DNA of 64,000 nt, taken from contig JAFRLH010000048.1 in NCBI GenBank assembly GCA_017431345.1, positions 1 to 64,000 on the forward strand, read 5' to 3'. Positions 5,299 to 40,941 of the stretch are shown one piece after another; the first letter of the stretch is position 1; the number at the start of each line of letters is the position of its first letter. This DNA is from Lachnospiraceae bacterium. Its GTDB lineage: Bacteria > Bacillota > Clostridia > Lachnospirales > Lachnospiraceae. Under the pieces are notes generated by a model, which was given only the letters and a program-made list of their open reading frames with translations, had not been told where the DNA came from and searched no databases. A program made the position numbers and the translations under genes.

Positions 5299-5805
5299 CT
5301 ACTTATCTTCCAGCAGTTCCTCGACTTCGGCGATCTTGCCGTCCGCGAGTTCCTCATCGATCATGACATTCCCGCACACGGGACAGGCCGGCAGCTGCGC
5401 GTACCCGTAAGCCCGCAGGATCTCCTCTGCCTTCTCACTGCACTCAAAGATCAGTTCCGGACATACTTTGGAAATATTTCTCTTATCCCCATGCAGAATA
5501 TCATCACAGTTCGGGCTTCCAAACCGCTCCTCGAACCAGTCCAGATACTCCTCCACCATCTCTTTTATTTCCGGCGGATCTGCTTCTTCCGGCAGTCCGC
5601 GGCCTGCGAACAGACCGAACATGGCGCAGCCGCCTGTCAGTGCCCCGCAGTTTTTTCCGCATCCGTACAGACCTCCGGCAAGTCCTGTCATGACACGCAG
5701 CAGATCCGGATTATCCTCCCCTTTCACTTCCATGCCGGTCTTCATCAGCACCTGTGAACAGTGATATCTCTGCCCCAGGAGTTCCAACACTTCCTCTTTT
5801 TTCAT
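5299..5805 (-). CDS. C-GCAxxG-C-C family redox protein with C-terminal CxxC tail
   Basis: 168 residues. The first ~130 match the C-GCAxxG-C-C family, DVU_1555-like: an N-terminal Cys in YHCSQVL, glycine/cysteine core LYGCGKNCGALTGGC and later cysteines in NCDDIL and CPELIFEC. The pattern suggests metal or disulfide redox chemistry. The last 31 residues, from LPACPVCG to the end, match the tail of the CxxC protein encoded at 20746-20991 at 30 of 31 positions. The protein therefore reads as a fusion of two families that occur near each other in molybdenum-hydroxylase loci. AGGAGG precedes the ATG. It is the last gene of the module 1 cluster. Confidence 0.82.
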   Translation of the reverse strand: MKKEEVLELLGQRYHCSQVLMKTGMEVKGEDNPDLLRVMTGLAGGLYGCGKNCGALTGGCAMFGLFAGRGLPEEADPPEIKEMVEEYLDWFEERFGSPNCDDILHGDKRNISKVCPELIFECSEKAEEILRAYGYAQLPACPVCGNVMIDEELADGKIAEVEELLEDK

Positions 5806-5922
5806 ATTTTCCTCCTTTCATCACGGGCCTCAGGACCGTGCCCGGATTCTTCTGTTTTTCACCAGACAGCAAGATGTAATCCTGTACCTGCTTTTTTGCC
5901 TCACGTACAGGCTCCCATCAGA

Positions 5923-6114
5923 TCACTTATCTTCCATCTCCTTCTCGACCTCCCGGATTTTTCCGGCGGCAAGCTCCGGAGATATATAGACCTGCCCGCA
6001 TACAGGACAGGAAGGGATCGGATGCTTCAGTTTATGGCCCATATAGAAAAAAGAAACATCGGACAGACATAGCGGTTCCCTGCATTTATGACAGATCAGT
6101 TTTTTTTCATTCAC
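5923..6114 (-). CDS. Small CxxC redox protein, DVU_1557-like (module 1)
   Basis: 63 residues starting at GTG 6114, with GGAGG 9 nt upstream. The frame stays open to a TTG at 6138, but that has no ribosome site. It holds two CxxC pairs, LICHKC and SCPVCG, and ends in the family signature ELAAGKIREVEKEMEDK. The family occurs beside molybdenum hydroxylases and I recall it as the DVU_1557 redox protein family. A zinc ribbon or rubredoxin-like metal site is likely from the paired CxxC, but the function is unproven. It follows the dicluster flavoprotein by 94 nt; paralogues are at 20746 and 35391. Confidence 0.82.
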   Translation of the reverse strand: MNEKKLICHKCREPLCLSDVSFFYMGHKLKHPIPSCPVCGQVYISPELAAGKIREVEKEMEDK

Positions 6115-6208
6115 TGCTAAATACCTCCGTCGTTTCAACAGCGCCCCTGCTGATCCGGCATACCCTTTGAAATCCCTGCCGGAAGCATGGGCGCACGGCG
6201 TGTTCAGA

Positions 6209-8485
6209 TCAGCTCCGCACGTAATGAGGATACCGCTTCTTTACACGTTTTATCTCCCTTCCCCGTTCTTCAATTTCCATTCGGTGGGAATAGATATCCT
6301 TCAATAAGAATTCTCCTTTTGCCGGAGCGTACTCCGCCCATACCGTGATATATCCCATCTGCAGGTGTGCAATCCTGAGGCCGTCTTCATCCTCCAGCCA
6401 CAGCCCCGTACGCTCAGCATACGCGATCACACTTCGCAGTTCATCCTCTGTCAGTCTCTGTCTGTTCATCTCTTCCCGGATTTCCCCGCTTATGCGCAGT
6501 ATGATATGCTGATCCGGTAATTTCACATCAATACCGTCCATGCCGAAAAACTTCTCCTGTACCATTTTTGCAGATCGTTCTCTGTTCCGCCGCCTTTTTG
6601 TAAGATCCGGCGCTTCCGGAGCCGCCTGTCTCTCCAGAAGCAGATCCAGTATGTGCCAGGCTTCCTTCCCGCGTTCAGCATAGATATCCCTGCAGTTTGT
6701 ACAATAACAGAGATAGGGCAGCTCACTTTCGGTTACGCGGCTCTGTACGATCTCCTCTTTCAGTTCCGGATTTGCCGCTTCCACATCACCGCCATAGCTG
6801 CAGCAGGGTGCTTCCCTGATGTTTTCGTGCAAAGGATGATACGCCGCCGCCATCCGGTCCAGCAGACCTGTTATGTCTTCTCTCCAGCGCGTATCATCTT
6901 TTGCCGCACACGGGTCTGCCAGCGCAAAAGTCCTGCCCGCACCGCAGACTTTCACATTCTCAATGAGAGACCAAAGGGTAACCCAGCCGATCTCAGGCAG
7001 GAAACGTTCCAGCTGCTTTCCGCAGGACGGACATGTGAGTACAAAAACCGGCCTGCCGGCTTCCTCCCAGAAATTTCTGATCTTTTCGATCATCTTTTCA
7101 TGCAGGGCCTCATCCCCTGCCCAGAAAGCCGGTGCACCGCAGCAGCTCAGCAGGATCCCGGAATCGGGTTTTGACTGCAGCAGCAATTCGTAGGCTTTTT
7201 CGGTATATGCAGGATCAGACGCGGTCAGCTGGCACCCCGGGAATAAGATGTACTCTGTTTTTCCCGTCGGAGAACATTTGCCTAAGAATGCATCTTCACT
7301 CATCGAGTGCGCCATATCCTTCAGCAGAAATCCGTGATAATAGTCAGACAGCTGCGCCTGTTCGAACATCTGATGCCTGGCCAGCATGATTTCCCGTCCG
7401 CTGTCAACGCCATACGGACATACCGCGACACAGGTCCCGCAGTCCGAACAGGCGTTGACCATCCGGTTATTCGTCTTGGGTTCGATCACATCCAGACGAA
7501 GTCCGAACTCCACTGCCGTCGCCAGCTGCGACGGATATTTCCGGTAATACCGCATAAAATCGCAGGCATCATAACAGCGGCTGCAGTCGCAGCGAAGACA
7601 CCGTCCGGCTTCCTGTTTTGCTTCCTCCGCCGTATATCCCGCATCGGAAACAGATTCCACAGCTTCCATCACTTCCATCCGCTCCGGCGGGACGAGCCTT
7701 GATTTCTGCTCCGGTTCCGGATCAAATAACGTCGTTCCGAGTTTCAGGAATTTTTCGACATCCACCGCAGCTCTTGCGCCATCCCGGATCGACTCCAGAA
7801 TATCGCAGCCCGTCAGCTGTCCGCCCAGGAAAAAGCCGTCTCTGTTTCCCGCATGAATATCAGGCCTTCCGCCGGCCGCCAGGCCGAAATCATTCCCTCC
7901 CTCTCCGGTCGCGACAAATACAGCGTCATAATCCTCCAGTTCCCGCAGAGAAGTGATCTCTCTGCCGCATTCAGCAATATAGGATCCGGCTTTGCTCTGC
8001 AGCTTAATTTCCCGCACTACCAGTTCCGGATCCGCTGCCGCGAGGAAACTGCCGCCGGTCACATCTTTCTTTTCAAAAACGGTGACCGCATAGTTCTTTG
8101 CGGAAAGCCGGATGGCAAATGCCAGACCGCACGGCCCGCCCCCGATCACGGCGACTTTCTGTGTTTTTGCAGGGAGGTTATATTTCACAGGGGCCGGAGA
8201 TCCCGACAGCCGCACTGCCGCCCGTTCCAGTTCCAGCAGCTTGACAGATTGGTCAACCCCCTTCCTCGGACATACGCCGCTGCATCTGGCATCACAGATC
8301 TCTGCTACGATTCCCGGAAACACCTCCGCCTGCTGCAGTATTTTATAGGCGCCGCGAAAGCTTCCCCTGTTCATTTTTGCGATAAAATCGCGGATCTCGG
8401 TATGAAACGGACAGACATCTGCACAAAAAGGAGGATCTCCCCGAACACACCCGCGGATATACTGACTGTTAAACCGATCTTTCAT
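6209..8485 (-). CDS. Pyridine nucleotide-disulfide oxidoreductase/dicluster-binding protein (module 1)
   Basis: 758 residues starting at ATG 8485, with AAGGAAAGGG upstream; the open frame runs on into the BCCT gene, which is not credible. Regions in order: a GltD-like N-terminal Fe-S segment (cysteines 13, 21, 25 and 64, 68, 72); an FAD/NAD Rossmann site VIGGGPCGLAF (113-123) with VATGEGG; a cysteine cluster CLRCDCSRC (296-304); a ferredoxin motif CSDCGTCVAVCP (346-357); two HdrB/GlpC-like CCG regions (FPGCQL 415, SCCGAP 448, CPSCGK 485, CCSYGG 561, CYCTNC 593); and a ~100-residue C-terminal domain. A role passing electrons from the molybdenum hydroxylase to another carrier fits, but is inferred. 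Paralogues occur at 20999 and 35636. Confidence 0.88.
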   Translation of the reverse strand: MKDRFNSQYIRGCVRGDPPFCADVCPFHTEIRDFIAKMNRGSFRGAYKILQQAEVFPGIVAEICDARCSGVCPRKGVDQSVKLLELERAAVRLSGSPAPVKYNLPAKTQKVAVIGGGPCGLAFAIRLSAKNYAVTVFEKKDVTGGSFLAAADPELVVREIKLQSKAGSYIAECGREITSLRELEDYDAVFVATGEGGNDFGLAAGGRPDIHAGNRDGFFLGGQLTGCDILESIRDGARAAVDVEKFLKLGTTLFDPEPEQKSRLVPPERMEVMEAVESVSDAGYTAEEAKQEAGRCLRCDCSRCYDACDFMRYYRKYPSQLATAVEFGLRLDVIEPKTNNRMVNACSDCGTCVAVCPYGVDSGREIMLARHQMFEQAQLSDYYHGFLLKDMAHSMSEDAFLGKCSPTGKTEYILFPGCQLTASDPAYTEKAYELLLQSKPDSGILLSCCGAPAFWAGDEALHEKMIEKIRNFWEEAGRPVFVLTCPSCGKQLERFLPEIGWVTLWSLIENVKVCGAGRTFALADPCAAKDDTRWREDITGLLDRMAAAYHPLHENIREAPCCSYGGDVEAANPELKEEIVQSRVTESELPYLCYCTNCRDIYAERGKEAWHILDLLLERQAAPEAPDLTKRRRNRERSAKMVQEKFFGMDGIDVKLPDQHIILRISGEIREEMNRQRLTEDELRSVIAYAERTGLWLEDEDGLRIAHLQMGYITVWAEYAPAKGEFLLKDIYSHRMEIEERGREIKRVKKRYPHYVRS

Positions 8486-8576
8486 ACATCCCTTTCCTTC
8501 CGCAGACAAGTATAAAAAAAGTGAAAGAATCCATTCTATCCCTGCTGTTTCTTCATGATCCCGACAAATACAGGAT

Positions 8577-8627: not shown

Positions 8628-10274
8628 TCAGTCACGATGCAGCTTGACGCCCATGGCCTCCTCGTCCTCCGGCGTAATTCTGTCCCGAATGTCGCGGAGT
8701 TCCTGCAGCCTCTCGAGATGGAGCTGCTTACTGTGTTTCTCATTAAAGTCGATGCGCAGGATCTTTAGGAATGCCACAAACATCAGCGGCAGCAGAACGA
8801 ACATCGGCAGCGTACAGATTCCCTGAATATTCTGGATGGCGCCGGCGCCTCCCGCCAGGAAGATGGACGCCATTCCGGACATGATCACCGCCCAGATAAC
8901 CCGAAGCCAGGTCGGGGGGTTCATATCGCCGCGGCACGAAAGCACCGAAATCGTGAAGTCCGCCGAATCACAGGAAGTCAGAATAAAGGTAATGATCAGG
9001 ATCAGCGTCAGCACACCGAAGACGATTGTCAGCGGCATATGCTCATACAGAGCAAAGGTGCAGCTTCCCCAGACGCCCCCGATCTGCTTCATCAGGCCGC
9101 CGTTCAGCTCGCGGTCTACAAGAACCGCCTGTGTTCCCACAATAGAGTTCCACGTGTGGGCGAACAGTGTCGGCATCAGCATCCCGCCAACGACCAGTTC
9201 CCGGATGCTGCGGCCGCGGGAGATCTTTGCGATAAAGATTCCCACGAAGGGTGTCCATGCCATGAAGAAAGCAAGAATCATGACCGGCCAGTCTCTGACG
9301 AAATCAAAACCTCCCAGTGCAGCCTGCGTGGATCCGGTTGCATCCATAAAGAACGTCATCGGGATAAAGTTCACGATCAGATCTCCCAGGCACTGGATCC
9401 AGCCTTCGATCAGATTAATCGTGTTTCCGAAGACGACGAACATGGCCAGAATAATAATACACAGACGAAGGTTCCAGTCGGACATCAGTGCCATGCCCTT
9501 GGAAAGACCGCTGTTCGTAGATGCGATCAGGATGACCGTCAGCACGATGAGAATGACCAGGCGAAGGAAAAACGTGGAGGGGATTCCGAAAATATATTCC
9601 ATACCGGACCCGATCATATTGCAGGCGAGGGAATAGGAAGCGCAGACACCTCCCAGCGTAAGAAAGATAACATATGCGTCAATAATTTTTCCCCACGAGG
9701 TCTCCCGCCTGGGCGTCCCGTCCGCATTCGGCTTTGCAAAAGCCTGGATCAGCGGGGTAGAAAAGAGGCCGCCAACGCCTCTGTTATAGGTGAAATAAGC
9801 AATGATCAGACCAACGATGATATATCCCGCCCAGGGATGCAGCGCATGATACCAGGTTGCATAATTGATACCTATACTCCAGGCTTCAGCGCTCTGCGGC
9901 GCCAGCCCGAAGGGCGGATTGTAATAGTGATCAAGTGTGACATAAATGCCGTAATAAGTGATACCGACACCCAGACCGGCGGCAAACATCATGGCGACCC
10001 AGGTGAACAGAGAATACTCCGGTTTATCATTCTGATTGGAACATAGACGGATCTTCCCGTACTTGCTGAATGCAAGAAAGGCCATTGCAAGAATAAAGAA
10101 CAGATAGCCGAGCATATAGCTCCAGCCGAAAGCGCCGTTCATAGCCGTAAAAATTCTGCTTGTAACAGCAGTAAAAGTCTCCGGCATTGTCCAATACCAG
10201 ATGATAAACAGGATCGTTACAATAAGACTGCTGAAGAAAATCACCTTATCCACTTTTTTAAAAAAACTGTTCAT
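8628..10274 (-). CDS. BCCT family transporter (betaine/carnitine/choline type)
   Basis: A 548-residue secondary transporter with about 12 hydrophobic spans. The BCCT hallmark AWTPFVGIFIAKISRGRSIR is clear, and the TM4 aromatic segment TWYHALHPWAGY is kept. In known BCCT proteins the TM8 aromatic box reads W-x-W-W-x-x-W; here the matching stretch is LAFFMAW, so two tryptophans are phenylalanine. A substrate different from glycine betaine is plausible. I preferred ATG 10274 (AAGGA 11 nt upstream) over ATG 10286, which directly abuts AAAAAGG. It lies between hydroxylase 1 and its dicluster protein on the same strand, so it probably imports the compound this cluster degrades. Confidence 0.93.
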   Translation of the reverse strand: MNSFFKKVDKVIFFSSLIVTILFIIWYWTMPETFTAVTSRIFTAMNGAFGWSYMLGYLFFILAMAFLAFSKYGKIRLCSNQNDKPEYSLFTWVAMMFAAGLGVGITYYGIYVTLDHYYNPPFGLAPQSAEAWSIGINYATWYHALHPWAGYIIVGLIIAYFTYNRGVGGLFSTPLIQAFAKPNADGTPRRETSWGKIIDAYVIFLTLGGVCASYSLACNMIGSGMEYIFGIPSTFFLRLVILIVLTVILIASTNSGLSKGMALMSDWNLRLCIIILAMFVVFGNTINLIEGWIQCLGDLIVNFIPMTFFMDATGSTQAALGGFDFVRDWPVMILAFFMAWTPFVGIFIAKISRGRSIRELVVGGMLMPTLFAHTWNSIVGTQAVLVDRELNGGLMKQIGGVWGSCTFALYEHMPLTIVFGVLTLILIITFILTSCDSADFTISVLSCRGDMNPPTWLRVIWAVIMSGMASIFLAGGAGAIQNIQGICTLPMFVLLPLMFVAFLKILRIDFNEKHSKQLHLERLQELRDIRDRITPEDEEAMGVKLHRD

Positions 10275-10399
10275 ACACGACACCATCCTTTTTCTTCAGA
10301 TCACAAATTCGATCTAAAACCCTATAATCATTCCTCCTATACAATTCCGGATCTGCATCACTGCTTCTATAATAGCATTTTAAATCGTCCTGCGGAGAC

Positions 10400-10466: not shown

Positions 10467-13307
10467 TCAGACCGGATTCTCGGCAATCTCCTCCAGTTCA
10501 TCATACATATCTCCGCCGAGATAGTACTTTTCGGGCTTGTAAGGCTCTCTGCCCTCTGCGATGGCATCGATGCCGGCCTTTACTTTCTCCGGCAGCGCAG
10601 GCAGTTCATAAATTCTTACGCCGCACGCCTGATAGATGGCATTGATGACAGCCATATGCTGTGAGGACTGATAGCACTCCGAGCAGCCCGCTGAACCCCA
10701 GGGACCGGTCGGACGGGGCGTCTCAATATGAATGACGCGGATATCGTCCGGTGTATCAAGCGGATAATTGACGCCGGAGCCCTTGATGTTGGCGTGCTTC
10801 TTTACATCATGGTAATCTTCCTTCAATGCGAAGCCGATGCTGTGTGCGATTCCGCCGTAGGCCTGGCCGTTGAGATCGATCGGATGTCCGACGACACCCA
10901 CATCGTCGATCATGGTATAATGCATTACCGTCGTCTTTCCGGTCTTCATATCCACTTCCACGTCGGCGATATTCATCGCGTACATGAAGGTGGGCGTCAC
11001 GTCGATCGCACCGGTATTGGGATCCATGGGAACCAGATTCAGTCCGCCGACCTCATGATAGCCCTTGACCTTCAGCGGCTTGCCATCCGCCACCATCTCC
11101 TCGTAGGTTCTGTAGGTGCCGTCTTCCTTGCGCATATTGTCAAGCATCTGCGTTACGGCATCGATGGTGGCATGACCGACCATATAATGCATACGGGATC
11201 CGCCCGCCATACCTGTGTTCGGGCAGTCACGGCTGTCATTCAGGATCGTCTTGATCTTATCCGTCGTAATTTTATAGCCTGCCTCATTGAAAGCCTTTGC
11301 CGTGACAAGAACCGTACCGGCGTCGCCGCCCTGTCCCTGGTCTTCCCAGGTATTATAGTTAATAAACGTGCCGTCCGGCTTCATCTCCAGGAAAACGGAA
11401 GCCGAGTCTCCGTTGCCGCCGGTAACAGTAAATCCGCCGATGGCCATTCCGACCGCCCTGCGCTTTTCGGGCGTGCTCTCCGCTGCCGCCACCTTCTTCA
11501 TCTCCTCATAGATAGGACGCGCTGTTTCGAAGATCTTCGGCATCGGATACTCACGGTAAGGGAATCCGTTAATCGTATAATCCCCGGGCCTCGCAATGTT
11601 CTTCTCGCGGAAATCGAACGGATCCATACCGACTTCTTCGGCCAGCTGATCCATCAAGGCCTCCGTAACAGTGGCAGACTGCGGTGCGCCATAGCCTCTG
11701 TAGGTTGTGGCAAGCTGATGGTTTGTGTAACCCATGCGGATAATTCCGGTGGCATTGGGGATATTGTAAGGGAATCCGGGCATACGCACATAGCGGTTGA
11801 CAAGAGACTCCGCCATGTCGTGGTAGGCGCCGTGATCGCATCCCATCTCATACTCCAGGGCAGTGATCTTTCCGTCCTCGTCACAGGCGAGGCGGGCGTT
11901 TGTCCACAGCGGCGCACGTTTTCCGGCAAAATGCTGGTTCTCCTCCCAGCTCATTGTCCAGGTCACCGGCGTTTTGAGATTATATGCCGCGACAGCCGCA
12001 ATGGCATAGGAGTGCGGGTTAACGGCTGCACCAAAAGATGCGCCGGTAGGATTCTCGATAATGCGGAGCTTGTCCCGTTCGATGCCAAGTGCACCGGCAA
12101 CATAGTCCAGCGATCCGTATACATCCTGCGTCTTGCACGCTACAGTCAGCCTTCCCTCCTCATCATAGAACGCCTGCATCGTATCGGGCTCGAGATTGAG
12201 ATGGGGCTCACGTGTGGACATATAGCTGCCGCCGACCACATGTGCGGATTCTTCCATCACTTCATTGGCAAGTCTTCCATGGAACAGAGGCTGCGTGATA
12301 TAAACATTCGGCAGGCCGGGATGGATCTCGATGGCATCCGGTACAGCTGCTTCAGGGTAGGTCAGATATTCGGGCAGCGGTTCCAGATCGACTTTCACAG
12401 CCTTTGCCGCAGCACGGGCATGCTCGCGGGTATCCGCTGCGACCACGGCAACCACATCGCCGTAACGAACGATCTTCTTATCAGAAAGGACCTGCCAGGT
12501 CGGACGGTCCACTTTCGCACGGGCATGGTTCAGACCGCCGCCGATCAGATTGGTGCCGGGAACATCTTTTGCGGTAAGCACTTTGACAACACCGGGCATT
12601 TTCTCTGCTTCAGAATAATCAATGCCCTTGATATTCGCGTGATGATATTTGCAGGGCTGTACGATGGCCAGATGCAGTGTGCCGGCAGGCATCTTCAAAC
12701 CGACATCATCTCCGAAATCACATACGCCGCAGGCCTTGGCAAGCGCGACAGGTCTGGTCGGCGACGTGCCGTAATATTCACCGTTCTCAGGTTCTTTATA
12801 CATAAGGGTCTCAACCGGTTCTTCTCCCCGCATAACCTTTGCCGCAGCAATTACGGAATCCACGATCTGTACATAACCGGTACAACGGCAGACGTTATTG
12901 TTTTTCTGGAACCATTGGCGGATCTCTTCACGGGTGGGATCCGGGTTCTGTTTGAGAAGAGCGTAGGAAGACACGATGAATCCGGGCGTACAGAAACCGC
13001 ACTGCACACCGCCAAGATGGGCAAAAGCAAGCTGCAGCGGATGCGGATGCATCGGCGTTCCGATTCCCTCTATCGTAATCACTTCATCGCAATCGGCGAT
13101 TGTTTTCATTTTTTTGACACAGGAACGAACCAGCTTCCCGTTATAAATTACCGTACATGCGCCGCAGAGTCCCTTGTTGCAGCCGATTTTTGTTCCGGTC
13201 AGGCCAAGACGTCTGAGTGCGTCCGCGAGTGTATCTTTTTCCGGATCGCAGAATACAAATCTTTCCGCACCGTTGATGGTCAGCGGAATTCTCTTGATCA
13301 TAGTCAT
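10467..13307 (-). CDS. MOP-type molybdenum hydroxylase / aldehyde oxidoreductase 1
   Basis: 946 residues, xanthine oxidase superfamily, with the architecture of Desulfovibrio aldehyde oxidoreductase and no FAD domain. A plant-type 2Fe-2S domain has Cys 43, 48, 51 and 63. The second 2Fe-2S domain has Cys 103, 106, 140 and 142 (QCGFC and VCRCTGY). The Mo-pterin domain fills the rest. Near the C-terminus GSAGCSECYQ aligns with the family segment holding the catalytic Glu. GGGAGA lies 7 nt before the ATG. The family hydroxylates aldehydes or heterocycles; the substrate here is unknown. Without FAD it needs a partner, and the dicluster flavoprotein of this cluster is the obvious candidate. It also follows the tautomerase and the flavoprotein complex. 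Confidence 0.92.
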   Translation of the reverse strand: MTMIKRIPLTINGAERFVFCDPEKDTLADALRRLGLTGTKIGCNKGLCGACTVIYNGKLVRSCVKKMKTIADCDEVITIEGIGTPMHPHPLQLAFAHLGGVQCGFCTPGFIVSSYALLKQNPDPTREEIRQWFQKNNNVCRCTGYVQIVDSVIAAAKVMRGEEPVETLMYKEPENGEYYGTSPTRPVALAKACGVCDFGDDVGLKMPAGTLHLAIVQPCKYHHANIKGIDYSEAEKMPGVVKVLTAKDVPGTNLIGGGLNHARAKVDRPTWQVLSDKKIVRYGDVVAVVAADTREHARAAAKAVKVDLEPLPEYLTYPEAAVPDAIEIHPGLPNVYITQPLFHGRLANEVMEESAHVVGGSYMSTREPHLNLEPDTMQAFYDEEGRLTVACKTQDVYGSLDYVAGALGIERDKLRIIENPTGASFGAAVNPHSYAIAAVAAYNLKTPVTWTMSWEENQHFAGKRAPLWTNARLACDEDGKITALEYEMGCDHGAYHDMAESLVNRYVRMPGFPYNIPNATGIIRMGYTNHQLATTYRGYGAPQSATVTEALMDQLAEEVGMDPFDFREKNIARPGDYTINGFPYREYPMPKIFETARPIYEEMKKVAAAESTPEKRRAVGMAIGGFTVTGGNGDSASVFLEMKPDGTFINYNTWEDQGQGGDAGTVLVTAKAFNEAGYKITTDKIKTILNDSRDCPNTGMAGGSRMHYMVGHATIDAVTQMLDNMRKEDGTYRTYEEMVADGKPLKVKGYHEVGGLNLVPMDPNTGAIDVTPTFMYAMNIADVEVDMKTGKTTVMHYTMIDDVGVVGHPIDLNGQAYGGIAHSIGFALKEDYHDVKKHANIKGSGVNYPLDTPDDIRVIHIETPRPTGPWGSAGCSECYQSSQHMAVINAIYQACGVRIYELPALPEKVKAGIDAIAEGREPYKPEKYYLGGDMYDELEEIAENPV

Positions 13308-23302: not shown

Positions 23303-23340
23303 GGGCACCTCCTGATTTCTGGTTCATGAACTTCGAAAAG

Positions 23341-29256: not shown

Positions 29257-29263
29257 CTGTGGA

Positions 29264-30733: not shown

Positions 30734-30815
30734 ACCTACCTCCTGCAGCTTATTCCTGCATACAGGCCGCGGATCCCGGTCTGACAGGACAGGGATTTCC
30801 CCGGATTGTGTGAGA

Positions 30816-30843
30816 CCCGGAAGATTCCGCAGAGTCTTCCGGG
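30816..30843. terminator. Hairpin between rnfB and rnfC
   Basis: 9-bp stem CCCGGAAGA/TCTTCCGGG with a 10-nt loop in the 165-nt gap. No U-run; it may stabilise the rnfB end or attenuate readthrough to rnfC. Confidence 0.45.
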
Positions 30844-30898
30844 CCGTATACGCTAAAACACCATGCATGTGTCTTCTTCTTAAAACATTTCAGGCAGA

Positions 30899-31726
30899 TC
30901 AGCCGACACGTCTGAAGGTCAGCAGCGAAGTGAAATCTCCTTCCACGATCGCTTTGGTAGGGCAGACTTCCGTACAGTGCCCGCAGTTGATGCACTTATG
31001 CTGATCGATTATGGACAGATTGTTCTTAATGGTGATCGCACCGGTAGGGCATTCCTTCTCGCACTTATGGCATCCGATGCAGCCGGCTTTGCAGGCCGGA
31101 CGCACATGGGACCCGGCCAGGGTGTTTCTGCAGCCTTCCACCGTACGCACGGTATCCGGAAGCAGGGAAATAATGCCCTTGGGGCAGATATCCGCGCACA
31201 TTCCGCAGCCGATGCATTCGGACGCATTGATATGCGCCAGATCATCTTTAATGGTGATGGCTCCCTGCGGGCAGACAGTGGCGCAGTCGCCGAATCCCAG
31301 GCAGGCGAAGGTGCAGAGTTTTTTGCCGCCGAAAAGAAGGTTCGCACCGGCGCAGGAAGAAATGCCTTTGTACTCTTCCTTTACGCTTGCGGTATGGCAG
31401 TCTCCCTGGCAGTGCATGACGGCGACCATGGAAACGACCTCCTCTGCTTCTTTTCCGAGCAGGGCTGCGATCTCAGCGGCGGCTTTTTCTCCGCCGGGGA
31501 CGCATTTCCCGGTCTTCTCTTCATTGCCCGCCGCGATCTCGGCAGCGTAATGATCGCAGCCTGCGTATCCGCAGGCGCCGCAGTTCGCGCCCGGAAGACA
31601 GGCCCGGATCTTTTCAGCGGTTTCATCGACAGGAACAAACATATACCTTGCAGCGATGACGAGGATCGCTGCGCACACAGCAGAAACGGAACATAGAACA
31701 ACGACGGCAATTCCTACTTCAGACAT
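30899..31726 (-). CDS. rnfB: Electron transport complex subunit RnfB
   Basis: 275 residues. An N-terminal membrane helix (about 5-27) is followed by the Fe-S domain LPGANCGACGYAGCDHYA and several 4Fe-4S motifs (CTFACLGFGDCATVC, CIGCGMCADICP, CIGCHKCEKECP, CINCGHCTEVCP). RnfB is the entry point for electrons from ferredoxin. In most Clostridia rnfB is the last gene of rnfCDGEAB; here it comes first on the same strand. Confidence 0.95.
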   Translation of the reverse strand: MSEVGIAVVVLCSVSAVCAAILVIAARYMFVPVDETAEKIRACLPGANCGACGYAGCDHYAAEIAAGNEEKTGKCVPGGEKAAAEIAALLGKEAEEVVSMVAVMHCQGDCHTASVKEEYKGISSCAGANLLFGGKKLCTFACLGFGDCATVCPQGAITIKDDLAHINASECIGCGMCADICPKGIISLLPDTVRTVEGCRNTLAGSHVRPACKAGCIGCHKCEKECPTGAITIKNNLSIIDQHKCINCGHCTEVCPTKAIVEGDFTSLLTFRRVG

Positions 31727-34044: not shown

Positions 34045-35340
34045 TCAGATGTAGGTGATGCAGAACGGTCTGATCCTGCCGTCCTTATACACATGCAGGC
34101 TGCACTGCATAAGCCTCTCCATGTCCAGATTCCAGGCATCCTGAAATGCCATGGATGTAAGCGTAAACGAATACCGTTTCACTCTGTTGATAAAAGTGTC
34201 CATATCTGACATATCTGGCTCCGCACTTTCCGCCGTCTCCGGTCTTTCTGCGGCTGCCGCACTCCATCTTCTCCCGACGAACTCCCGGTTCATCTCCGCC
34301 GGATCGGTCTCCGGTTCCGGCGCTCCGCAGCAGCAGGAACGCTTCTTTGAAAGCGGCAGAAGGGTCCTGTCAGGCATCACAATGAAATCTCCGTGAAAGC
34401 CGCATAAAGGATGGTCGCAGCAGGACGGGATCAGGTTCCGCATGTTCACCAGCCCCCCGCTCTGTTTTGCAAGTTCCCATATCATCTGATCCAGTGTGAA
34501 TCTGTCCTCTGCCTTCGGCTCGTACGGAATCCTCCCGAAGAAGCTCACCGGCTGAAAATGGATTCCCCGCACAATGGGCGAACGGGCGATCCCGAAGCGC
34601 AGGATCTCTCCGATCTCCTGCTCATTCACGCCCGGCACGATCACCGGTACCAGCGTCACACCGATCCCGTATTTGCCGCAGTTCTCAATCGCTTTCTTTT
34701 TGATCTCCATCATCGGACGTCTGCGCAGCTTCAGATAGACATCCTCATTTACGCCGTCAAAGGACAGAAAAACGATATCCAGGCCGGCTTCCGCCAGTTC
34801 CTTCACGTACGCTTCATCCTGCGCCAGCCGCAGGCCGTTCGTGTTCACCTGCACATATTTGCAGCCGGCGGTCTTTGCGAACCGGATGATCTCAGGAAGA
34901 TCGTCCCTGAGCGTCGGTTCCCCGCCCGAGAGCTGCAGAAACGTCTTTCCGGGGACTGTAAGATCCAGGATCCAGGCTTTCACCTGCCCGGCAGACGGAT
35001 CTTCCCTGCTGCGCGAAGGCGCAAAGCAGAATGCACAGTTCATATTGCAGCGTTCCGTCACTTCCAGCAGCGTACAGCAGGTATCCCTTCGGTGGCTGCT
35101 GCATTCCCCGATACCGGGACAGGATGCGCAGTTCCTGCTCTCCTCTTCCGTGACCGGCCGGATCTTTCCTTTCCACTGGTCCGGATCCAGATATCCCTTC
35201 CATAACGGCGCAAAAAACTTCCCGTGCTCCGGGCATTTCTTGCCCAGCACGATCCCTTTTCCTTTTCTGCGCCACAGCGCAGGGATCCGTTTTCTGCACA
35301 CAGGGCAGATGCTCCAGGTCTTTTCAAGTTCCGCGGACAT
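34045..35340 (-). CDS. trsS: Radical SAM protein, TrsS-like (cysteine form)
   Basis: 431 residues. An N-terminal zinc-type segment (ICPVCRKRIP, KKCPEHGKF) precedes the radical SAM motif CNMNCAFC (Cx3Cx2C) near residue 96. QLSGGEPTLRDDLPE follows, a usual SAM-contact GGE. Additional cysteines include SCCDHPLCG and RSCCCGAPE near the C-terminus. The family I recall as radical SAM (seleno)protein TrsS has members with selenocysteine and occurs in these hydroxylase loci; here the positions read as Cys, with no in-frame TGA. ATG 35340 was chosen over the adjacent TTG 35343. It follows the module 3 CxxC gene by 50 nt. The reaction is unknown; cofactor or hydroxylase maturation is inferred. Confidence 0.78.
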   Translation of the reverse strand: MSAELEKTWSICPVCRKRIPALWRRKGKGIVLGKKCPEHGKFFAPLWKGYLDPDQWKGKIRPVTEEESRNCASCPGIGECSSHRRDTCCTLLEVTERCNMNCAFCFAPSRSREDPSAGQVKAWILDLTVPGKTFLQLSGGEPTLRDDLPEIIRFAKTAGCKYVQVNTNGLRLAQDEAYVKELAEAGLDIVFLSFDGVNEDVYLKLRRRPMMEIKKKAIENCGKYGIGVTLVPVIVPGVNEQEIGEILRFGIARSPIVRGIHFQPVSFFGRIPYEPKAEDRFTLDQMIWELAKQSGGLVNMRNLIPSCCDHPLCGFHGDFIVMPDRTLLPLSKKRSCCCGAPEPETDPAEMNREFVGRRWSAAAAERPETAESAEPDMSDMDTFINRVKRYSFTLTSMAFQDAWNLDMERLMQCSLHVYKDGRIRPFCITYI

Positions 35341-35390
35341 CAATGACTGCCTCTCTTTCTGTTCCTGTGCCGGTCAGAAGAACACCCGGT

Positions 35391-35636
35391 CTATTTATCC
35401 TCAAAGTTCTTTTCCACTTCCGCCATCTTGCCGAGCGCCAGGTCTTCCGGGATGAACACTTCCTTACAGACCGGGCACCGCAGCAGCTTTGTATGAAAGC
35501 CGTGACCGAAATACTCGAAATAGGTTTCCGCCGGTTCCAGCGCCGCGCTGCATTTTCTGCAGATCAGCGCTGTGTCTGTCTTCACATCCGGCTTGTAATC
35601 TTCAGGATTCATGGATGCTTTTTTCATTTCGTCCAT
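35391..35636 (-). CDS. Small CxxC redox protein, DVU_1557-like (module 3)
   Basis: 81 residues. LICRKCSAALEPAETYFEYF gives the first CxxC and RCPVCKE the second, and the tail is EDLALGKMAEVEKNFEDK. The second of two tandem ATGs (35636) is better spaced from GGAGG; it overlaps the dicluster stop by one base. A metal-binding redox accessory is the likely role, by family and context. Confidence 0.84.
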   Translation of the reverse strand: MDEMKKASMNPEDYKPDVKTDTALICRKCSAALEPAETYFEYFGHGFHTKLLRCPVCKEVFIPEDLALGKMAEVEKNFEDK

Positions 35637-37876
35637 CATTCCCCCTCCAGATTCATTCTGTGCGCATAGCCGCCGTGAAGGATCGGAATGCCTCCGGGCA
35701 CGGGCTCGTACACAGCCCAGTATGTCATGTTCTGAATCTTCTTATGACCGGTCACATAGCCTGTTTCCTTCGAAACGATGCCTCTTCCCTCCGCTTCCAG
35801 CGTCTCCACGACTTCTTCCATATCGGAGATCAGGATATGCATGTCCGACAATCTCTGCTCCAGTTCCTGGGAAACGATGAGCTTCACTTCTTCTTTCCTT
35901 TCCGTCCCGGTCAGAGCATCTGCCAGGATCATCCTGTTCTTTCTTCTGGCGGTAACGGTCGGCGCGGGACGCTTTTCATCACCGATCCCGAACAGGATAT
36001 CGAAGAGATGCACGGCATCCTTATCCTGTCCCGCAAAGGTATCCCTGCAGTTCGCGCAGTAACACAGATACGGCAGATCGGACGCAGCTGTCCTCTCCTG
36101 AATGACCCGCTTTGCGTAATCCGGTGCAGCGATCGAATACTGTCCGCCGTAACTGCAGCAGTTCGCATACTTACCGTTGCCGGGGATCTCTGCAAAACAG
36201 ATGCCGGCCTTCTCCAGGATCTTCCTTACGTTTTCCTGCAGTTCCGGTTCCTGTCTGCTGGCACACGGATCGAACAGCGCGAACCGTTTTCCGGCAGCGC
36301 ACTCTCCGGCACCTTCCGGAAGCCCCCAGGCAAGCATCAGTTCTTCGATGAACACGCCCGGGATCTCCGGCAGGAACTGCCGGAACATCTTTCTGCAGGT
36401 CGGACACGCAAAGACAAGCTTCGGCTTTCCGAGCCGCTCCCATTCCCCGCGCAGCTTCTGCAGATGTTCCGTATGTTTTTCGCGCTCCACAGCCCAGTGC
36501 GCCGGCGCACCGCAGCAGTTCAGGAACAGGGCTGTATCCGGCTTATGGGAACGCAGCCAGTCCAGCGCTTCCGTCACATAAGAGGGATCCGAGGCACCCA
36601 GCTGGCAGCCCGGGAAAAACGCATAATCACATTGACCAGCCGGCATCTCCGTCAGCGCGCCGGGGCCTGCAGCGTTCTCCATATCCCGCAGCCAGTAATC
36701 ATGGAACGCCCACGGCATCGCGTCCGTTTCCTTCAGGCCTCTGTGGCTCTGCCACAGGAAATCGCCCATGTCGATCCGCTCCGGACAGACATCCTTACAC
36801 AGGCCGCACTGGTCGCAGGAAGCGATCCTCCTGGTCGCCCAGCGGCCGTCGTTCGCGAGCGTGGACGGGCGGACTGTAATATAGGATTCCTCGTACAGCC
36901 TGCCGGGCGTCTTCTTCTGGATCCTCATCAGGTCGCATTCCCGCATGCAGATATCGCATGAGCACCGGATGCATCTCTTTGCTTCCCTTACGACTTCGTC
37001 TTTTGTAAAACCGTTTTCAGGATCCTCAGCCGTTACAGGCTCTGTATGCGCCAGATGCGCCGGATCCATCACCAGTCCGGTATCCTTCACGGGAAATGGT
37101 TCGTTCATCAGCTGTATCTTGATATAGCGTTCCAGCGCCATGGATGCCCTGAGTCCCTGCGCAAGCGCTGTGACCGGATCCGCACCGGTCAGTGCGCCGC
37201 CGAGAAACACACCCGGCATATTGGATGCGAACGCGCCGCCGGAGTCCTGTTTGAGGCCGAAATCATCGCCGCCCGCGCCGGTCGCGACATACACAGCATC
37301 ATATTCGCGCTTTAATACGGCTATATCGCTGATCCTTGTATTCAGCCGGATGTCCGGCTCCTCGAACTGAAACTGGTTTTTGATATCCTCATCAAAGATT
37401 TCCGGATCCATCAACTCCCTGGCGGCTCCGCCGAGATGATCCGACGCCTCAAACAGTGTTACCCGGTATTTTTTCTGGCACAGTTTGAGCGCGCAGCCAA
37501 GTCCCGATAAGCCTCCGCCGACAACAGCAGCGGTCTGCGGTTTGGCAGGCATATTAAAAGCATTCGGGGATTTCCGCCTGGTCTGCTTTAAAGTTGCTGC
37601 TTCAAGCGCTCCCATCTGAACAGCGCCGCCGACATGCTTCAGGATACAGGAATTCTCGCACGGCCGGCTGCAGATCCTGGATACGATCTCGGGAAAACCG
37701 ACCGCGGTCTGATAGCCGCGGTAGACGGCGCTCACCCTGCCGGCGGACCATTTGGTGATCATGTCGGCGATGTCCAGATGGAACGGACAGGCGACACGGC
37801 AGAACGGAGGCTCGTCCTGCAGGCATTTTGTTTTGAATATCTCCCCGTAGGATTCAAGAAATCTGGTATCTTCCAT
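35636..37876 (-). CDS. Pyridine nucleotide-disulfide oxidoreductase/dicluster-binding protein (module 3)
   Basis: 746 residues from ATG 37876 with GGGAG 5 nt upstream; the longer frame includes the terminator region and is rejected. Order of motifs: N-terminal Fe-S (PPFCRVACPFH, ICSRPCENSC), FAD site VVGGGLSGLGCALKL, CIRCSCDICMREC, ferredoxin motif CDQCGLCKDVCPE, CCG-type motifs FPGCQLGAS, CCGAPAHW, CPTCRK, CCSYGGQ and CANCRD, and the C-terminal domain. Nearly all cysteines are shared with the other two copies. It links hydroxylase 3 to the CxxC and TrsS-like genes. Confidence 0.88.
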   Translation of the reverse strand: MEDTRFLESYGEIFKTKCLQDEPPFCRVACPFHLDIADMITKWSAGRVSAVYRGYQTAVGFPEIVSRICSRPCENSCILKHVGGAVQMGALEAATLKQTRRKSPNAFNMPAKPQTAAVVGGGLSGLGCALKLCQKKYRVTLFEASDHLGGAARELMDPEIFDEDIKNQFQFEEPDIRLNTRISDIAVLKREYDAVYVATGAGGDDFGLKQDSGGAFASNMPGVFLGGALTGADPVTALAQGLRASMALERYIKIQLMNEPFPVKDTGLVMDPAHLAHTEPVTAEDPENGFTKDEVVREAKRCIRCSCDICMRECDLMRIQKKTPGRLYEESYITVRPSTLANDGRWATRRIASCDQCGLCKDVCPERIDMGDFLWQSHRGLKETDAMPWAFHDYWLRDMENAAGPGALTEMPAGQCDYAFFPGCQLGASDPSYVTEALDWLRSHKPDTALFLNCCGAPAHWAVEREKHTEHLQKLRGEWERLGKPKLVFACPTCRKMFRQFLPEIPGVFIEELMLAWGLPEGAGECAAGKRFALFDPCASRQEPELQENVRKILEKAGICFAEIPGNGKYANCCSYGGQYSIAAPDYAKRVIQERTAASDLPYLCYCANCRDTFAGQDKDAVHLFDILFGIGDEKRPAPTVTARRKNRMILADALTGTERKEEVKLIVSQELEQRLSDMHILISDMEEVVETLEAEGRGIVSKETGYVTGHKKIQNMTYWAVYEPVPGGIPILHGGYAHRMNLEGE

Positions 37877-37934
37877 AATCTCTCCCGGCGCCGGACGCGC
37901 CGCCCTCCCCTGAAGGGAAAGGCATTTTTGCAAA

Positions 37935-37959
37935 GACCCGCGGGATGATCCCGCGGGTC
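37935..37959 (-). terminator. Strong hairpin after hydroxylase 3
   Basis: Perfect 11-bp GC-rich stem with loop TGA, 54 nt after the hydroxylase stop; followed in the minus direction by TTTGC. Partial termination would leave the dicluster gene at lower expression. Confidence 0.65.
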
Positions 37960-38013
37960 AATTGTATCATTGTTTGGCCGCATAAACAACGCGACAATTT
38001 GGTTGACAGACAA

Positions 38014-40941
38014 TCAGAACGGTCTCTCTGCGTCCGGATCGTCCAGGGATACATAGAATCCCTCGTTCTTGTTGAACGGTACGGGGTTCGCCTTGATGTC
38101 TTCCAGACGCTCGTACATATCCGGTCCGAGATAGTACTTCTTCGGCTCGTAAGGCTTTTCACCGCGTGCGATCGCGTCCATACCGGCTTTGATCTTCGCG
38201 GGCGTTGCGGGCTGCTCATGGACACGGACGCCGGTCGCGTTATAGATCGCGTTCAGCACCGCGCAGTGAGGAGAAGCCTGGAATGCTTCCGAAGCGCCCG
38301 AGCTTCCGAACGGGCCGGACTCGATCGTGTCATCCATGTGGATGATCGTGATGTTGTCAGGCGTATCCTTGATATAAGGAACGCCGGCGCCAAGCATGTT
38401 CGCGTTCTTCTTTACATCATCGTAATCCTCGGTCAGGGCAAATCCGATACCGTGGGACACACCTGAATATGCCTGGCCGTTGACAGCCTGGATGTTTCCT
38501 ACACGGCCTACATGATCCACACAGGTGAATCCGATGCAGGTCGCCTTGCCGGTCTTCGCGTCTACTTCGACTTCCGCCAGGTTCAGGCAGTAGGTATAAG
38601 CCGGTGAAGGATCGCCGATACCGGTGTTGGGATCGGGCCTTACAAGGTCGGGATCGATGGAATTCTCATGTCTTCCGATATACTTGGTCGGGATGCCCTC
38701 ATCCACCATCTCCTGATAGGTACGGTATGTGCCGTCTTCCTTCTTCATCGCTGCAAGCAGCTTTTCGCCGGCGATCTTTGTTGCAAGTCCGCTCATATAG
38801 AAGGAACGGGAGGCGCCTGCCATGCCGGAATCCGGGCAGAGCTTGGTATCGTTCTGCACAAGCTGGATATCCTCGGGCGTAAGGTGCAGCGGCTTTAATG
38901 CTTCCAGGGTTACCATGACAGAACCGACAGATCCTCCCTGTCCCATTGCATGCCAGGTATCATATTTCCAGATCTTTCCGTCTTCCTTCAGCTCGATCGC
39001 CACTTCGGACGCATCCGCTTCGCCTTCGGTGACATTGAATCCGCCCCATGCGATACCCACGCCGCGGAGCTTTTCGGGAGTAGACTCAGCCTTCGCTCTG
39101 GCTTTCGCCTCCTCATAGATCGGGCGCATGGTATCCATCATGGCTTCCATCGGATACTGCTTGAACGCATAGCTGTTGATATTTGTATCTCCCGGACGGG
39201 CGATATTCTTATATCTGAAATCGAAAGGATCCATTCCGAGCTCTTCCGCCATCATATCCATCAGCGGCTCGGACAGCGTATAAGCCTGCGGCGAACCATA
39301 GGAGCGGTAAGCAGTACCGAATGCATGGTTTACGTTGGCTACGCGGACAAGGCCTGCCACATTGGGAACATTGTAAGGCCAGAATGTGAAGCGGGCGGGC
39401 TTGGTCATGACATCGTCACCGCCCCAGGAATAGGCGCCGTGATCCAGGCCTACATCGAACTCGGCAGCAATGATGCGGCCGTCTTCATCGCAGGCAAGGC
39501 GTCCGTTCGAATAGGACGGGCATCTCTTGCCGGAGAAGTGCTGATGCTCTTCGTAGGACATCGACAGGGATACAGGCTCACCGGTGATGATCGTCGCAGC
39601 AAATGCAAGGGCGATATCGCCTGCATTGGTGGACCATCCGAAGCTGGCGCCGGTCGGGTTCATGATGATGCGGTATTTGTCGCGCGGCACCCCGAAGCAG
39701 TTGGAGCCGATACGGCCGATCGAGGAATAGGTGCACTGGGACTTGCACTGTGCAGTAAGCATACCGTCGTCGCCCCAGTAAGTCTGGCAGACGCAGCCTT
39801 CGATCGAAAGGTGCGGTTCACGGGTGGAATGGAAGCTTCCCTCTACCACATGAGGAGCATTGTCGATCAGCTCGCGGACATTTTCCGGATCCTCAAGGCC
39901 TGCGCCCTTCATGACAGGCTGTTCCGCGAAAATATTGTCTGTATCTTCATGGATGCGCATTGCGTCGGGCATGGCTGCATCCAGATAGCTGGTGTATTCA
40001 GGCAGCTTTTCAAGGTCGACAGTGACCTTCGCGGCGGCAGCACGGGCTTCTTTATTGGTGCGGGCTACAACAACAGCCACGACATCGCCGTAACGGAAGA
40101 TCTTCTCATCCTGCAGCACTTTACGGGAAGGCTTCAGGACAGTGCTTCTCTCATGGAAATTGCCCTCTGCCATCAGGTTCGTTCCGCCGATCGCATAGAT
40201 GTCCTTCGCGGTAATCACTTTTACGACGCCGGGCATCTTCTCGGCTTCTTCGGTATGGATGCCGAGGATTTTCGCGTGATGGGCAGCTCTCGGCTGTACA
40301 ACGGCAGCGAACAGGGTTCCTTCCGGCATCTTCATAGCCTGGTCATCGCCGTAATCGGTAAGGCCGGTGACTTTGCCCAGGGCATCGGGACGTACGATAC
40401 CGGTTCCGTAATATTCTCCGTCTTCCGGTGTCTTGTACATGATATCCTCGATGGCGCACTCACCGCGCATGACCTTCGCAGCGGCCATGACAGCATCAAC
40501 GATCTGCTTGTATCCGGTGCAGCGGCAGACGTTCCTGGTCTTCTGGAACCAGTCACGGACCTGCTCACGGGTGGGATCAGGATTCTCCTGCAGCAGCTGG
40601 TAAGCGGAAACGATGAATCCGGGCACGCAGAAACCGCACTGTACGGCGCCGCAGTGCATCCATGCGACCTGCAGGGGATGCAGATGCTGAGGGGTGCCGA
40701 TGCCTTCGATCGTGGTGATCTTCGCATATTCGGGAACGGCCGTGATCTTCCTGGTGCAGGAACGGATCACCTTTCCGTCAAGAATAACGGAGCAGGAACC
40801 GCAGACGCCGGTGCCGCAGCCGACCTTTACGCCGGTAAGGCCGAGTCTTCTCAGTACGTCAGAGAGCTTGTCGTTCTCGGGATCGCACATGAAAACACGG
40901 TCGACGCCGTTGATGTTCAGGAACATTTTCCTAAGAATCAT
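38014..40941 (-). CDS. MOP-type molybdenum hydroxylase / aldehyde oxidoreductase 3
   Basis: 975 residues with two 2Fe-2S domains (GCGTGVCGSCSV plus RSCTRK; QCGFCVPG plus VCRCTGY) and the Mo-pterin domain, no FAD domain. GSSGASEAFQ carries the expected catalytic Glu. AAGGAGG lies 8-9 nt before the ATG. It reads as closer to hydroxylase 2 than to hydroxylase 1. It heads module 3. The substrate is unknown; aldehydes, purines or other N-heterocycles are possible for the family. Confidence 0.92.
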   Translation of the reverse strand: MILRKMFLNINGVDRVFMCDPENDKLSDVLRRLGLTGVKVGCGTGVCGSCSVILDGKVIRSCTRKITAVPEYAKITTIEGIGTPQHLHPLQVAWMHCGAVQCGFCVPGFIVSAYQLLQENPDPTREQVRDWFQKTRNVCRCTGYKQIVDAVMAAAKVMRGECAIEDIMYKTPEDGEYYGTGIVRPDALGKVTGLTDYGDDQAMKMPEGTLFAAVVQPRAAHHAKILGIHTEEAEKMPGVVKVITAKDIYAIGGTNLMAEGNFHERSTVLKPSRKVLQDEKIFRYGDVVAVVVARTNKEARAAAAKVTVDLEKLPEYTSYLDAAMPDAMRIHEDTDNIFAEQPVMKGAGLEDPENVRELIDNAPHVVEGSFHSTREPHLSIEGCVCQTYWGDDGMLTAQCKSQCTYSSIGRIGSNCFGVPRDKYRIIMNPTGASFGWSTNAGDIALAFAATIITGEPVSLSMSYEEHQHFSGKRCPSYSNGRLACDEDGRIIAAEFDVGLDHGAYSWGGDDVMTKPARFTFWPYNVPNVAGLVRVANVNHAFGTAYRSYGSPQAYTLSEPLMDMMAEELGMDPFDFRYKNIARPGDTNINSYAFKQYPMEAMMDTMRPIYEEAKARAKAESTPEKLRGVGIAWGGFNVTEGEADASEVAIELKEDGKIWKYDTWHAMGQGGSVGSVMVTLEALKPLHLTPEDIQLVQNDTKLCPDSGMAGASRSFYMSGLATKIAGEKLLAAMKKEDGTYRTYQEMVDEGIPTKYIGRHENSIDPDLVRPDPNTGIGDPSPAYTYCLNLAEVEVDAKTGKATCIGFTCVDHVGRVGNIQAVNGQAYSGVSHGIGFALTEDYDDVKKNANMLGAGVPYIKDTPDNITIIHMDDTIESGPFGSSGASEAFQASPHCAVLNAIYNATGVRVHEQPATPAKIKAGMDAIARGEKPYEPKKYYLGPDMYERLEDIKANPVPFNKNEGFYVSLDDPDAERPF

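Follow-up and report, generated by a model that had tools for sequence, protein, structure and literature searches.

The stretch of DNA analysed here, called the window below, comprises bases 1-64000 of contig C54 in a 3.27 Mb draft genome of a Lachnospiraceae bacterium, which is 96.9% complete according to the genome listing. It carries three times, in the same order and on the minus strand, a set of three genes encoding a molybdenum hydroxylase, an iron-sulfur flavoprotein and a small protein with two CxxC pairs (Table 1). An earlier note on this DNA had described this threefold occurrence, and all nine genes indeed lie where it had placed them and exceed the curated cut-offs of their NCBIfam models. 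The exception is the start of the flavoprotein of module 1, which is very probably at 8485, behind a good ribosome-binding site and giving a protein of 758 amino acids, and not at 8743; this gene does, therefore, not overlap with that of the BCCT-family transporter. In module 3 the start of the CxxC gene and the stop of the flavoprotein gene share 4 bases. The presence of the BCCT transporter and a C-GCAxxG-C-C protein in module 1, and of a TrsS-like radical S-adenosylmethionine (SAM) enzyme in module 3, was likewise borne out by profile matches. The number of three modules applies to the window; the genome holds a fourth one on contig C86 (L027: hydroxylase 9892-12726, flavoprotein 7528-9843, CxxC protein 7349-7531). 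Our results suggest, at about even confidence, that in each module a hydroxylase of the aldehyde oxidoreductase (AOR) family is served by a soluble electron outlet of its own, with no direct use of NAD(P) (nicotinamide adenine dinucleotide (phosphate)).

Table 1. Module genes and other features of the window. Bit scores refer to the NCBIfam model named, with cut-offs of 1100 (NF045668), 530 (NF045663), 60 (NF045645), 490 (NF045646) and 350 bits (NF045664).
Feature	Position	Strand	Evidence
Module 1 molybdenum hydroxylase, AOR family (NF045668)	10467..13307	-	1116 bits; domains
BCCT-family transporter inside module 1	8628..10286	-	PF02028 407 bits; NF047988 383 bits, under equivalog cut-off 650
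Module 1 flavoprotein (NF045663), start moved from 8743	6209..8485	-	638.7 bits; ribosome-binding site
Module 1 CxxC protein (NF045645), ends EDK	5923..6138	-	71 bits, Pfam 80.9
C-GCAxxG-C-C protein (NF045669, DVU_1555 family)	5299..5805	-	137.3 bits; 48.7 bits for positions 29-60 of NF045645
Module 2 molybdenum hydroxylase, AOR family (NF045668)	23421..26342	-	1106.2 bits; domains
Module 2 flavoprotein (NF045663)	20999..23308	-	629.5 bits
Module 2 CxxC protein (NF045645), ends EDK	20746..20991	-	83.9 bits
Module 3 molybdenum hydroxylase, AOR family (NF045668)	38014..40941	-	1126.8 bits
Module 3 flavoprotein (NF045663)	35636..37933	-	696.5 bits; alignment and Cys counts; structure model
Module 3 CxxC protein (NF045645 / PF24292 DUF7479), ends EDK	35391..35639	-	80.8 bits, Pfam 85.3
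Radical SAM enzyme TrsS (NF045646), ends at TGA	34045..35343	-	507.6 bits
Rnf complex, encoded between modules 2 and 3 (with rising coordinate rnfA, E, G, D, C, B)	26510..31726	-	profile matches
XdhC-like factor related to AOR maturation factor family (NF045664)	55331..56437	-	277.5 bits, under cut-off

The three genes are tightly coupled well beyond this genome. A search with the flavoprotein through 84,980 species gave 178 confirmed loci, of which the best 80 were used. An AOR-type hydroxylase occurs within 3 kb and on the same strand in 76 of these 80 loci; among the four hydroxylase-free loci (L062, L086, L089 and L091), L086 starts at a contig edge and L062 and L089 extend only 0.75 and 1.4 kb upstream. 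A CxxC gene lies directly downstream in 67 loci, and of the 13 others three end there (L067, L087, L089) and two carry a CxxC gene elsewhere in the locus (L074, L080). A set of 391 Clostridia genomes, in which loci were not selected by means of the flavoprotein, was also examined; the best few candidates per genome were scored, so that copy numbers are lower bounds. The flavoprotein exceeded its cut-off in 16 genomes and the CxxC protein in those same 16; the AOR family did so in 15 of them and was represented by a partial match in the sixteenth. TrsS exceeded its cut-off in 15 of these 16 genomes and nowhere among the remaining 375, with G101 as the case of a module without a listed TrsS. Below the cut-offs, eight more genomes contain partial flavoprotein matches, four more contain TrsS-type matches (341-365 bits), and one more (G199) contains an AOR-type match of 520 bits that is interrupted by internal stops. 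Among the positions listed, a hydroxylase was located within 3 kb of 23 of the 24 over-cut-off flavoproteins, and a flavoprotein gene within 0.8 kb of every one of the 27 CxxC genes. The check proposed in the earlier note, i.e., how often the partner genes flank molybdenum hydroxylases, thus speaks for the note, since they are not found mostly away from them.

Hydroxylase and flavoprotein have also diverged together: their pairwise distances correlate with r = 0.82 over 69 modules (loci without a full upstream hydroxylase were left out), against a maximum of 0.13 after label shuffling. Over 59 modules the correlations were 0.56 for hydroxylase and CxxC protein and 0.66 for flavoprotein and CxxC protein (maximum 0.14 after shuffling). 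Shared ancestry adds to all these values. The 76 out of 80 loci and the co-occurrence in the same 16 out of 391 genomes rule out a chance assembly of the set.

The flavoproteins belong to the family named diclust_near_Sec (NF045663) and contain, in this order, GltD-type Fe-S and flavin adenine dinucleotide (FAD) parts, an HdrC-like dicluster, two HdrB-type CCG sites and a C-terminal domain of about 105 residues. The earlier note had seen a mixture of NAD/FAD, ferredoxin and CCG-type parts, of which the GltD-type Fe-S/FAD parts and the HdrB-like end were recovered. The NAD(P)H domain, which is inserted in the FAD domain of NfnB/GltD and of the GltD-like subunits of StnABC and NfnABC, is, however, missing in all 82 flavoproteins compared (four partial sequences of 86 were omitted). 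Only 10-60 residues occupy its place in the alignment, in agreement with the spans of the structures, whereas a GltD-type protein of the same genome has 199 residues there. Because this domain is missing, NAD(P) can be rejected as the direct acceptor of the flavoprotein. A second difference from GltD is the replacement of one N-terminal cluster cysteine in the five flavoprotein sequences shown, judged by the GltD cluster motifs.

In the second half of the protein, the cysteines C443, C473, C474, C510 and C513 and again C557, C592, C593, C626 and C629 are present in all 82 sequences and form two five-cysteine CCG motifs, the pattern of HdrB. A dicluster with CCG motifs is shared with HdrB/HdrC, EtfD and LutA, and in profile matches this part is most similar to EtfD (3e-20), followed by HdrC (about 3e-4) and HdrB (E 0.0012). 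The flavoprotein differs from these proteins in that a single chain carries a GltD-type flavin domain, then the dicluster/CCG part and finally the additional C-terminal domain, for which no PDB match and, in 28 members, no coherent Pfam match were obtained. The structure of the module 3 flavoprotein was predicted with high confidence (predicted local distance difference test (pLDDT) 93.9) from an alignment of 75 rows. Its closest structures by Z score are subunits of NfnABC and StnABC, i.e., bifurcating transhydrogenases, and the best matches in the dicluster/CCG part are EtfD and LutA. HdrB chains are not among the 50 structure matches listed, but this list is filled by the flavin domain and is, therefore, uninformative on this point.

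The hydroxylases score only slightly above the cut-off of their model. The earlier note had stated that they lack FAD, and a domain search indeed shows two [2Fe-2S] and two molybdenum cofactor domains in each of modules 1-3 (Fer2 and Fer2_2, and Ald_Xan_dh_C and MoCoBD_1 and 2 in the module 3 listing) and no match to an FAD domain in any of the three. In this architecture they resemble the aldehyde oxidoreductase of Desulfovibrio gigas (Mop/AOR; PDB 1SIJ, 1VLB), which they match over the full length (profile 2.5e-288 over positions 7-920) and with which (1SIJ) they align without a large insert. The catalytic Glu and the equivalent of Arg533 are kept in the modules of the window. The former is Glu869 in the D. 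gigas enzyme (PMC3877041), and its equivalent is Glu in 68 of the 69 module hydroxylases, the remaining one (L106) being gapped there.

The substrate pocket, on the other hand, has diverged. The equivalents of the pocket residues Phe425, Phe494 and Leu497 of the D. gigas enzyme are Thr, Gly and Asp in modules 2 and 3, Val, Met and Ser in module 1, and Cys, Asp and Pro in the module on contig C86. The combination Phe-Phe-Leu was encountered in 15 and Thr-Gly-Asp in 18 of the 69 hydroxylases, the latter including modules 2 and 3. TrsS is encoded in the same locus for 13 of the 15 Phe-Phe-Leu hydroxylases; among the others, those of the window excluded, this holds for 19 of 51. As described in PMC4726530, benzaldehyde is sandwiched by Phe425 and Tyr535 in the D. 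gigas enzyme, and in another enzyme replacement at this pocket site is tied to hydrophilic substrates. The Phe-Tyr pair does not occur in the window: Tyr is kept in all three modules, and Phe425 is replaced by Thr, Thr and Val. Because the pocket residues diverge while the catalytic residues stay, the modules look like one electron chassis combined with different substrate pockets.

The third component, the CxxC protein, belongs to the family DVU_1557 (NF045645) and to PF24292 (DUF7479). In an alignment of 61 of the 79 matches its four cysteines, arranged in two CxxC pairs, and Y43, E76, E80 and K82 are invariant. In 77 of 78 proteins a stop follows directly upon E-D/E/S-K (EDK in 70, EEK in six and ESK in one; L099 is the exception); one tail-only match, which also ends in EDK, was omitted from this count. 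The last residue is not conserved in the other proteins, where the commonest one occurs in 18 of 69 hydroxylases, 18 of 69 flavoproteins, six of 37 C-GCAxxG proteins and six of 36 TrsS. The tail also occurs fused to another protein: the last 31-32 residues of the C-GCAxxG-C-C protein of module 1 (5299-5505 region) correspond to a CxxC protein's C-terminal half, the EDK end included. Over 32 codons compared, this tail differs from that of the module 2 CxxC protein by 13 synonymous and one non-synonymous changes and, therefore, looks to have been kept by selection and not to be freshly copied. The predicted structure of the CxxC protein was poor (pLDDT 70) and gave no fold match at E 0.001, the best non-significant ones being MqsA/ZifS zinc fingers. 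A sequence search against the PDB gave only LIM and cytochrome matches at chance level.

The flavoprotein's C-terminal domain also occurs with the CxxC protein elsewhere, as three genomes (G296, G111 and G244) possess a stand-alone gene for this domain. In G296 it lies between a full flavoprotein gene and a CxxC gene, in a cluster that also includes hydroxylase, TrsS and C-GCAxxG genes. In G111 (L153, 3605-10856) and G244 (L154, 1-5301) it adjoins a divergent DUF7479 gene (Pfam 46.6 and 40.1 versus 27 bits), and the two genes adjoin a DVU_1556-like (TrsM-like) methyltransferase gene (84 and 101 bits, under the cut-off of 155). No hydroxylase match was obtained in the 12-14 kb fetched at these two loci; both genomes carry ordinary hydroxylase modules on other contigs too. 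Further genes there encode a dihydrolipoyl-dehydrogenase-like enzyme at both loci, two TrsS-type proteins and a DVU_1553 ligase at L153, and an acyl-CoA dehydratase activase and a 2-hydroxyglutaryl-CoA dehydratase-type protein, with a truncated one under its cut-off, at L154. This domain and the CxxC protein are, thus, also found together without a hydroxylase and make up a portable pair; a molybdenum enzyme next to the CxxC gene is not required.

Every module gene has a named NCBIfam model (molybdopterin-dependent aldehyde oxidoreductase, diclust_near_Sec and DVU_1557, respectively), all belonging to the DVU_1551-1559 or Trs cluster (NF045645, NF045646, NF045663-NF045669). In Fusibacter sp. 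3D3 (L109) nine cluster genes occur in one run, all over cut-off: those for the hydroxylase, the flavoprotein, DVU_1557, the DVU_1556 methyltransferase, the DVU_1555 C-GCAxxG-C-C protein, the XdhC-like AOR maturation factor, the DVU_1551 NTP transferase, TrsS and the DVU_1553 ligase. In the genome studied here, in contrast, the set is split into several hydroxylase-flavoprotein-CxxC modules and one TrsS, that of the window being the only copy over cut-off. A single TrsS can accompany several modules (G000, G090, G328 and G346; the copy numbers are lower bounds). Furthermore, the DVU_1556-type methyltransferase and the DVU_1553-type AMP-forming ligase are fused on contig C60 in a single frame of 657 codons (L155, 5783-7753), in which the ligase is over its cut-off and the methyltransferase just under it (148 versus 155 bits). 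The genes adjoining this fusion look by eye like genes of tryptophan synthesis. The set is, thus, an already named system in an expanded multi-module form. New are the missing NAD(P)H domain, the pairing of the C-terminal domain with the CxxC protein, the conserved CxxC C-terminus and the diversified pockets.

The earlier note knew of no biochemical description of the set. A literature search, which did not cover Haft and Tolstoy (2025), found none for the flavoprotein or the CxxC protein, and the available parts of PMC13188914, PMC10920352, PMC11784015 and PMC10102598 give no function for the partner genes. The statement was nevertheless too broad, since NCBIfam names every part and the hydroxylase family has been characterised in Desulfovibrio, with an in-vitro electron chain via flavodoxin (PMC10223205). 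TrsS is listed as a selenoprotein family, with reference to Haft and Tolstoy (2025), in a 2026 review (PMC13188914). The TrsS model runs a few residues past the TGA stop of the window copy (34045-34047), but read-through gains only about 3 bits and selB was not found over cut-off in the 96.9% complete genome (selA, selC and selD were not searched). Selenocysteine in this TrsS is, therefore, not supported and the TGA is probably a true stop. TrsS of G157 (contig C203) also shows an inner TGA.

The module hydroxylases of the genome are not recent copies of each other. Identity among the four is 47-68%, and the hydroxylases of modules 1, 2 and C86 are closer to one from another genome than to any of their own, which rules out a recent tandem duplication for these modules. 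The hydroxylase of module 3 is closest to a fifth AOR-family hydroxylase of the same genome on contig C48 (L028, 7169-10150; 1141 bits, over the NF045668 cut-off), with 91.8% identity, and then to hydroxylases of other genomes (89.8%). Among the matches listed, the closest named relatives of the module 3 flavoprotein are from metagenome-assembled genomes of uncultured Lachnospiraceae (88 and 83% identity). The claim in the earlier note that each hydroxylase has its own flavoprotein stands for the four modules, but that each needs its own is too strong, because the fifth hydroxylase has no adjacent flavoprotein gene. It may share the partners of module 3 in view of the high identity. The stretch fetched around it also contains a weak BCCT-like gene. 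The BCCT transporter is not supported as a fixed part of module 1, as only two of the 80 loci, many of which are short, have a BCCT match (L038 and L040), and these differ from the nearest relatives of module 1 (L069 and L076). In L076 two complete modules are positioned head to head on one contig (1161-12473).

In the reading that we favour, the hydroxylase would oxidise an aldehyde-type or related substrate at the molybdenum site, and release electrons singly via the two [2Fe-2S] clusters; these steps follow from the family to which the enzyme belongs. The flavoprotein would then receive them through the GltD-type N-terminal [4Fe-4S] clusters and FAD, and pass them via the HdrC-like pair of [4Fe-4S] clusters to the HdrB-like tail with its two CCG sites, a hand-over and internal order that we infer from gene order and protein anatomy. 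At the CCG end a thiol/disulfide-type acceptor or a small carrier may be reduced, the nature of which is a guess. The C-terminal domain and the DUF7479 protein would act as a pair, probably as a docking or carrier unit, and one set of helpers (TrsS, the TrsM-ligase fusion and the XdhC-like protein) may serve all modules in trans. The modules would, according to this scheme, differ mainly in the substrate pocket, with different hydroxylases on the same electron chassis.

A more specific role of the DUF7479 protein can be envisaged, although we regard it as quite improbable. It would be a working cofactor carrier, whose C-terminal E-D/E/S-K is modified or activated by TrsS, TrsM and the AMP-forming ligase and which docks on the C-terminal domain of the flavoprotein to take up electrons at the HdrB-like end, in a similar manner as the ribosomally made redox cofactors of other dehydrogenases. 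This idea is based on the conserved C-terminal residue, the grafted tail of the C-GCAxxG protein, the stand-alone domain/DUF7479 pair beside TrsM-like genes and the single TrsS accompanying several modules.

Several observations weigh against a dedicated electron outlet. The D. gigas enzyme reduces flavodoxin in vitro without the module flavoprotein (PMC10223205). Upstream of the flavoprotein gene in locus L091, 5.1 kb of DNA gave no hydroxylase match; in G184 the listed hydroxylase is 26 kb away from the flavoprotein (two of six candidates scored); and the 17 kb fetched around the lone C48 hydroxylase gave no match to a flavoprotein or CxxC protein. The 16 genomes fall in only 11 genera and are, thus, not independent, so that relatedness raises the counts. 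Maturation genes abound in the canonical clusters, and the partners could, therefore, serve maturation. Finally, the similarity of the flavoprotein to HdrB itself is weak, and the Asp of the GltD FAD site is not kept in the five flavoprotein sequences shown, for which reason its binding of FAD is to be considered as predicted.

One alternative is electron bifurcation or confurcation by the flavoprotein, which would then correspond to HdrABC in a single chain: FAD would split electron pairs from the hydroxylase, one branch leading via the N-terminal clusters to ferredoxin, for use by Rnf, and the other to a disulfide at the HdrB-like end. The structural proximity to the NfnABC and StnABC subunits, the similarity to HdrC and HdrB with two complete CCG motifs, and the rnf genes between modules 2 and 3 are all consistent with this. 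We nevertheless consider it unlikely, because with the NAD(P)H domain the hydride donor site is gone, and aldehyde oxidation is already at a potential low enough for ferredoxin, so that splitting is unneeded. Moreover, RnfC matches are absent from all 80 related loci; the link with rnf is, thus, local and Rnf is not supported as a fixed neighbour of the module, leaving it as a possible ferredoxin:NAD link outside the module.

The flavoprotein and the CxxC protein could, instead of forming an electron outlet, be maturation or protection factors involved in cofactor insertion, sulfuration or reactivation. The XdhC-like, NTP transferase (MocA-like), TrsS, methyltransferase and ligase genes alongside them in the canonical clusters would fit with this, as would the slight resemblance of the CxxC protein to a small zinc finger rather than to a carrier, and the use of flavodoxin by the D. 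gigas enzyme (PMC10223205). Such a role seems, however, rather unlikely in view of one flavoprotein per module (four) versus a single TrsS in the genome, the joint divergence of flavoprotein and hydroxylase, and the unbroken chain of Fe-S and FAD motifs, which is typical of electron transfer.

A third possibility is that the CCG end hands its electrons to quinone, which has been proposed as the acceptor of EtfD- and LutA-type proteins, the best sequence (EtfD) and structural (EtfD and LutA) matches of the dicluster/CCG part. A membrane span was not found in the flavoprotein by hydropathy, the highest means over 19 residues being 1.40-1.53 where the limit is usually 1.6; a peripheral protein would still be possible, and we regard this alternative as improbable. 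That common redox genes happen to form the repeated sets, or that these arose by a very recent duplication in place, has a negligible probability: molybdenum hydroxylases are common in this genome (nine PF02738 matches) and include, with the solitary C48 enzyme, a recent copy of that of module 3, but the order is the same in many other genomes, the genes co-occur in the same 16 of 391, and the module hydroxylases are too divergent and, for modules 1, 2 and C86, closer to those of other genomes.

A molybdenum/tungsten island of the window (41655-57538) comprises genes for a tungsten-type aldehyde ferredoxin oxidoreductase, TupA/TupB-like tungstate transport, two MoeA-type proteins, MoeB, a further molybdopterin-synthesis domain protein and the XdhC-like protein. 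A split sarcosine-oxidase-like or GlpA-like set, consisting of an FAD subunit, [2Fe-2S] and 4Fe-4S proteins and a second FAD subunit, occurs at 13671-17272, and a second, similar set at 50688-53150. A match to the FGE-sulfatase domain (PF03781, 38 bits) at 17019-18092 is in a frame that overlaps with the gene called at 16676-17272; one start of this overlapping pair is probably wrong.

Our results have consequences for the way in which these proteins are annotated and their function is considered. The annotation name "pyridine nucleotide-disulfide oxidoreductase" is misleading for the flavoprotein family. In-vitro work on the D. gigas enzyme has led to flavodoxin being regarded as the acceptor of flavin-free AORs (PMC10223205). 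The flavoprotein, which almost always adjoins the hydroxylase, lacks an NAD(P)H domain and has an HdrB-like end, is another strong candidate for this role. The conserved end of the DUF7479 protein and its portable pairing with the C-terminal domain point to a shared, as yet unexplained step, which perhaps also takes place outside the molybdenum hydroxylases.

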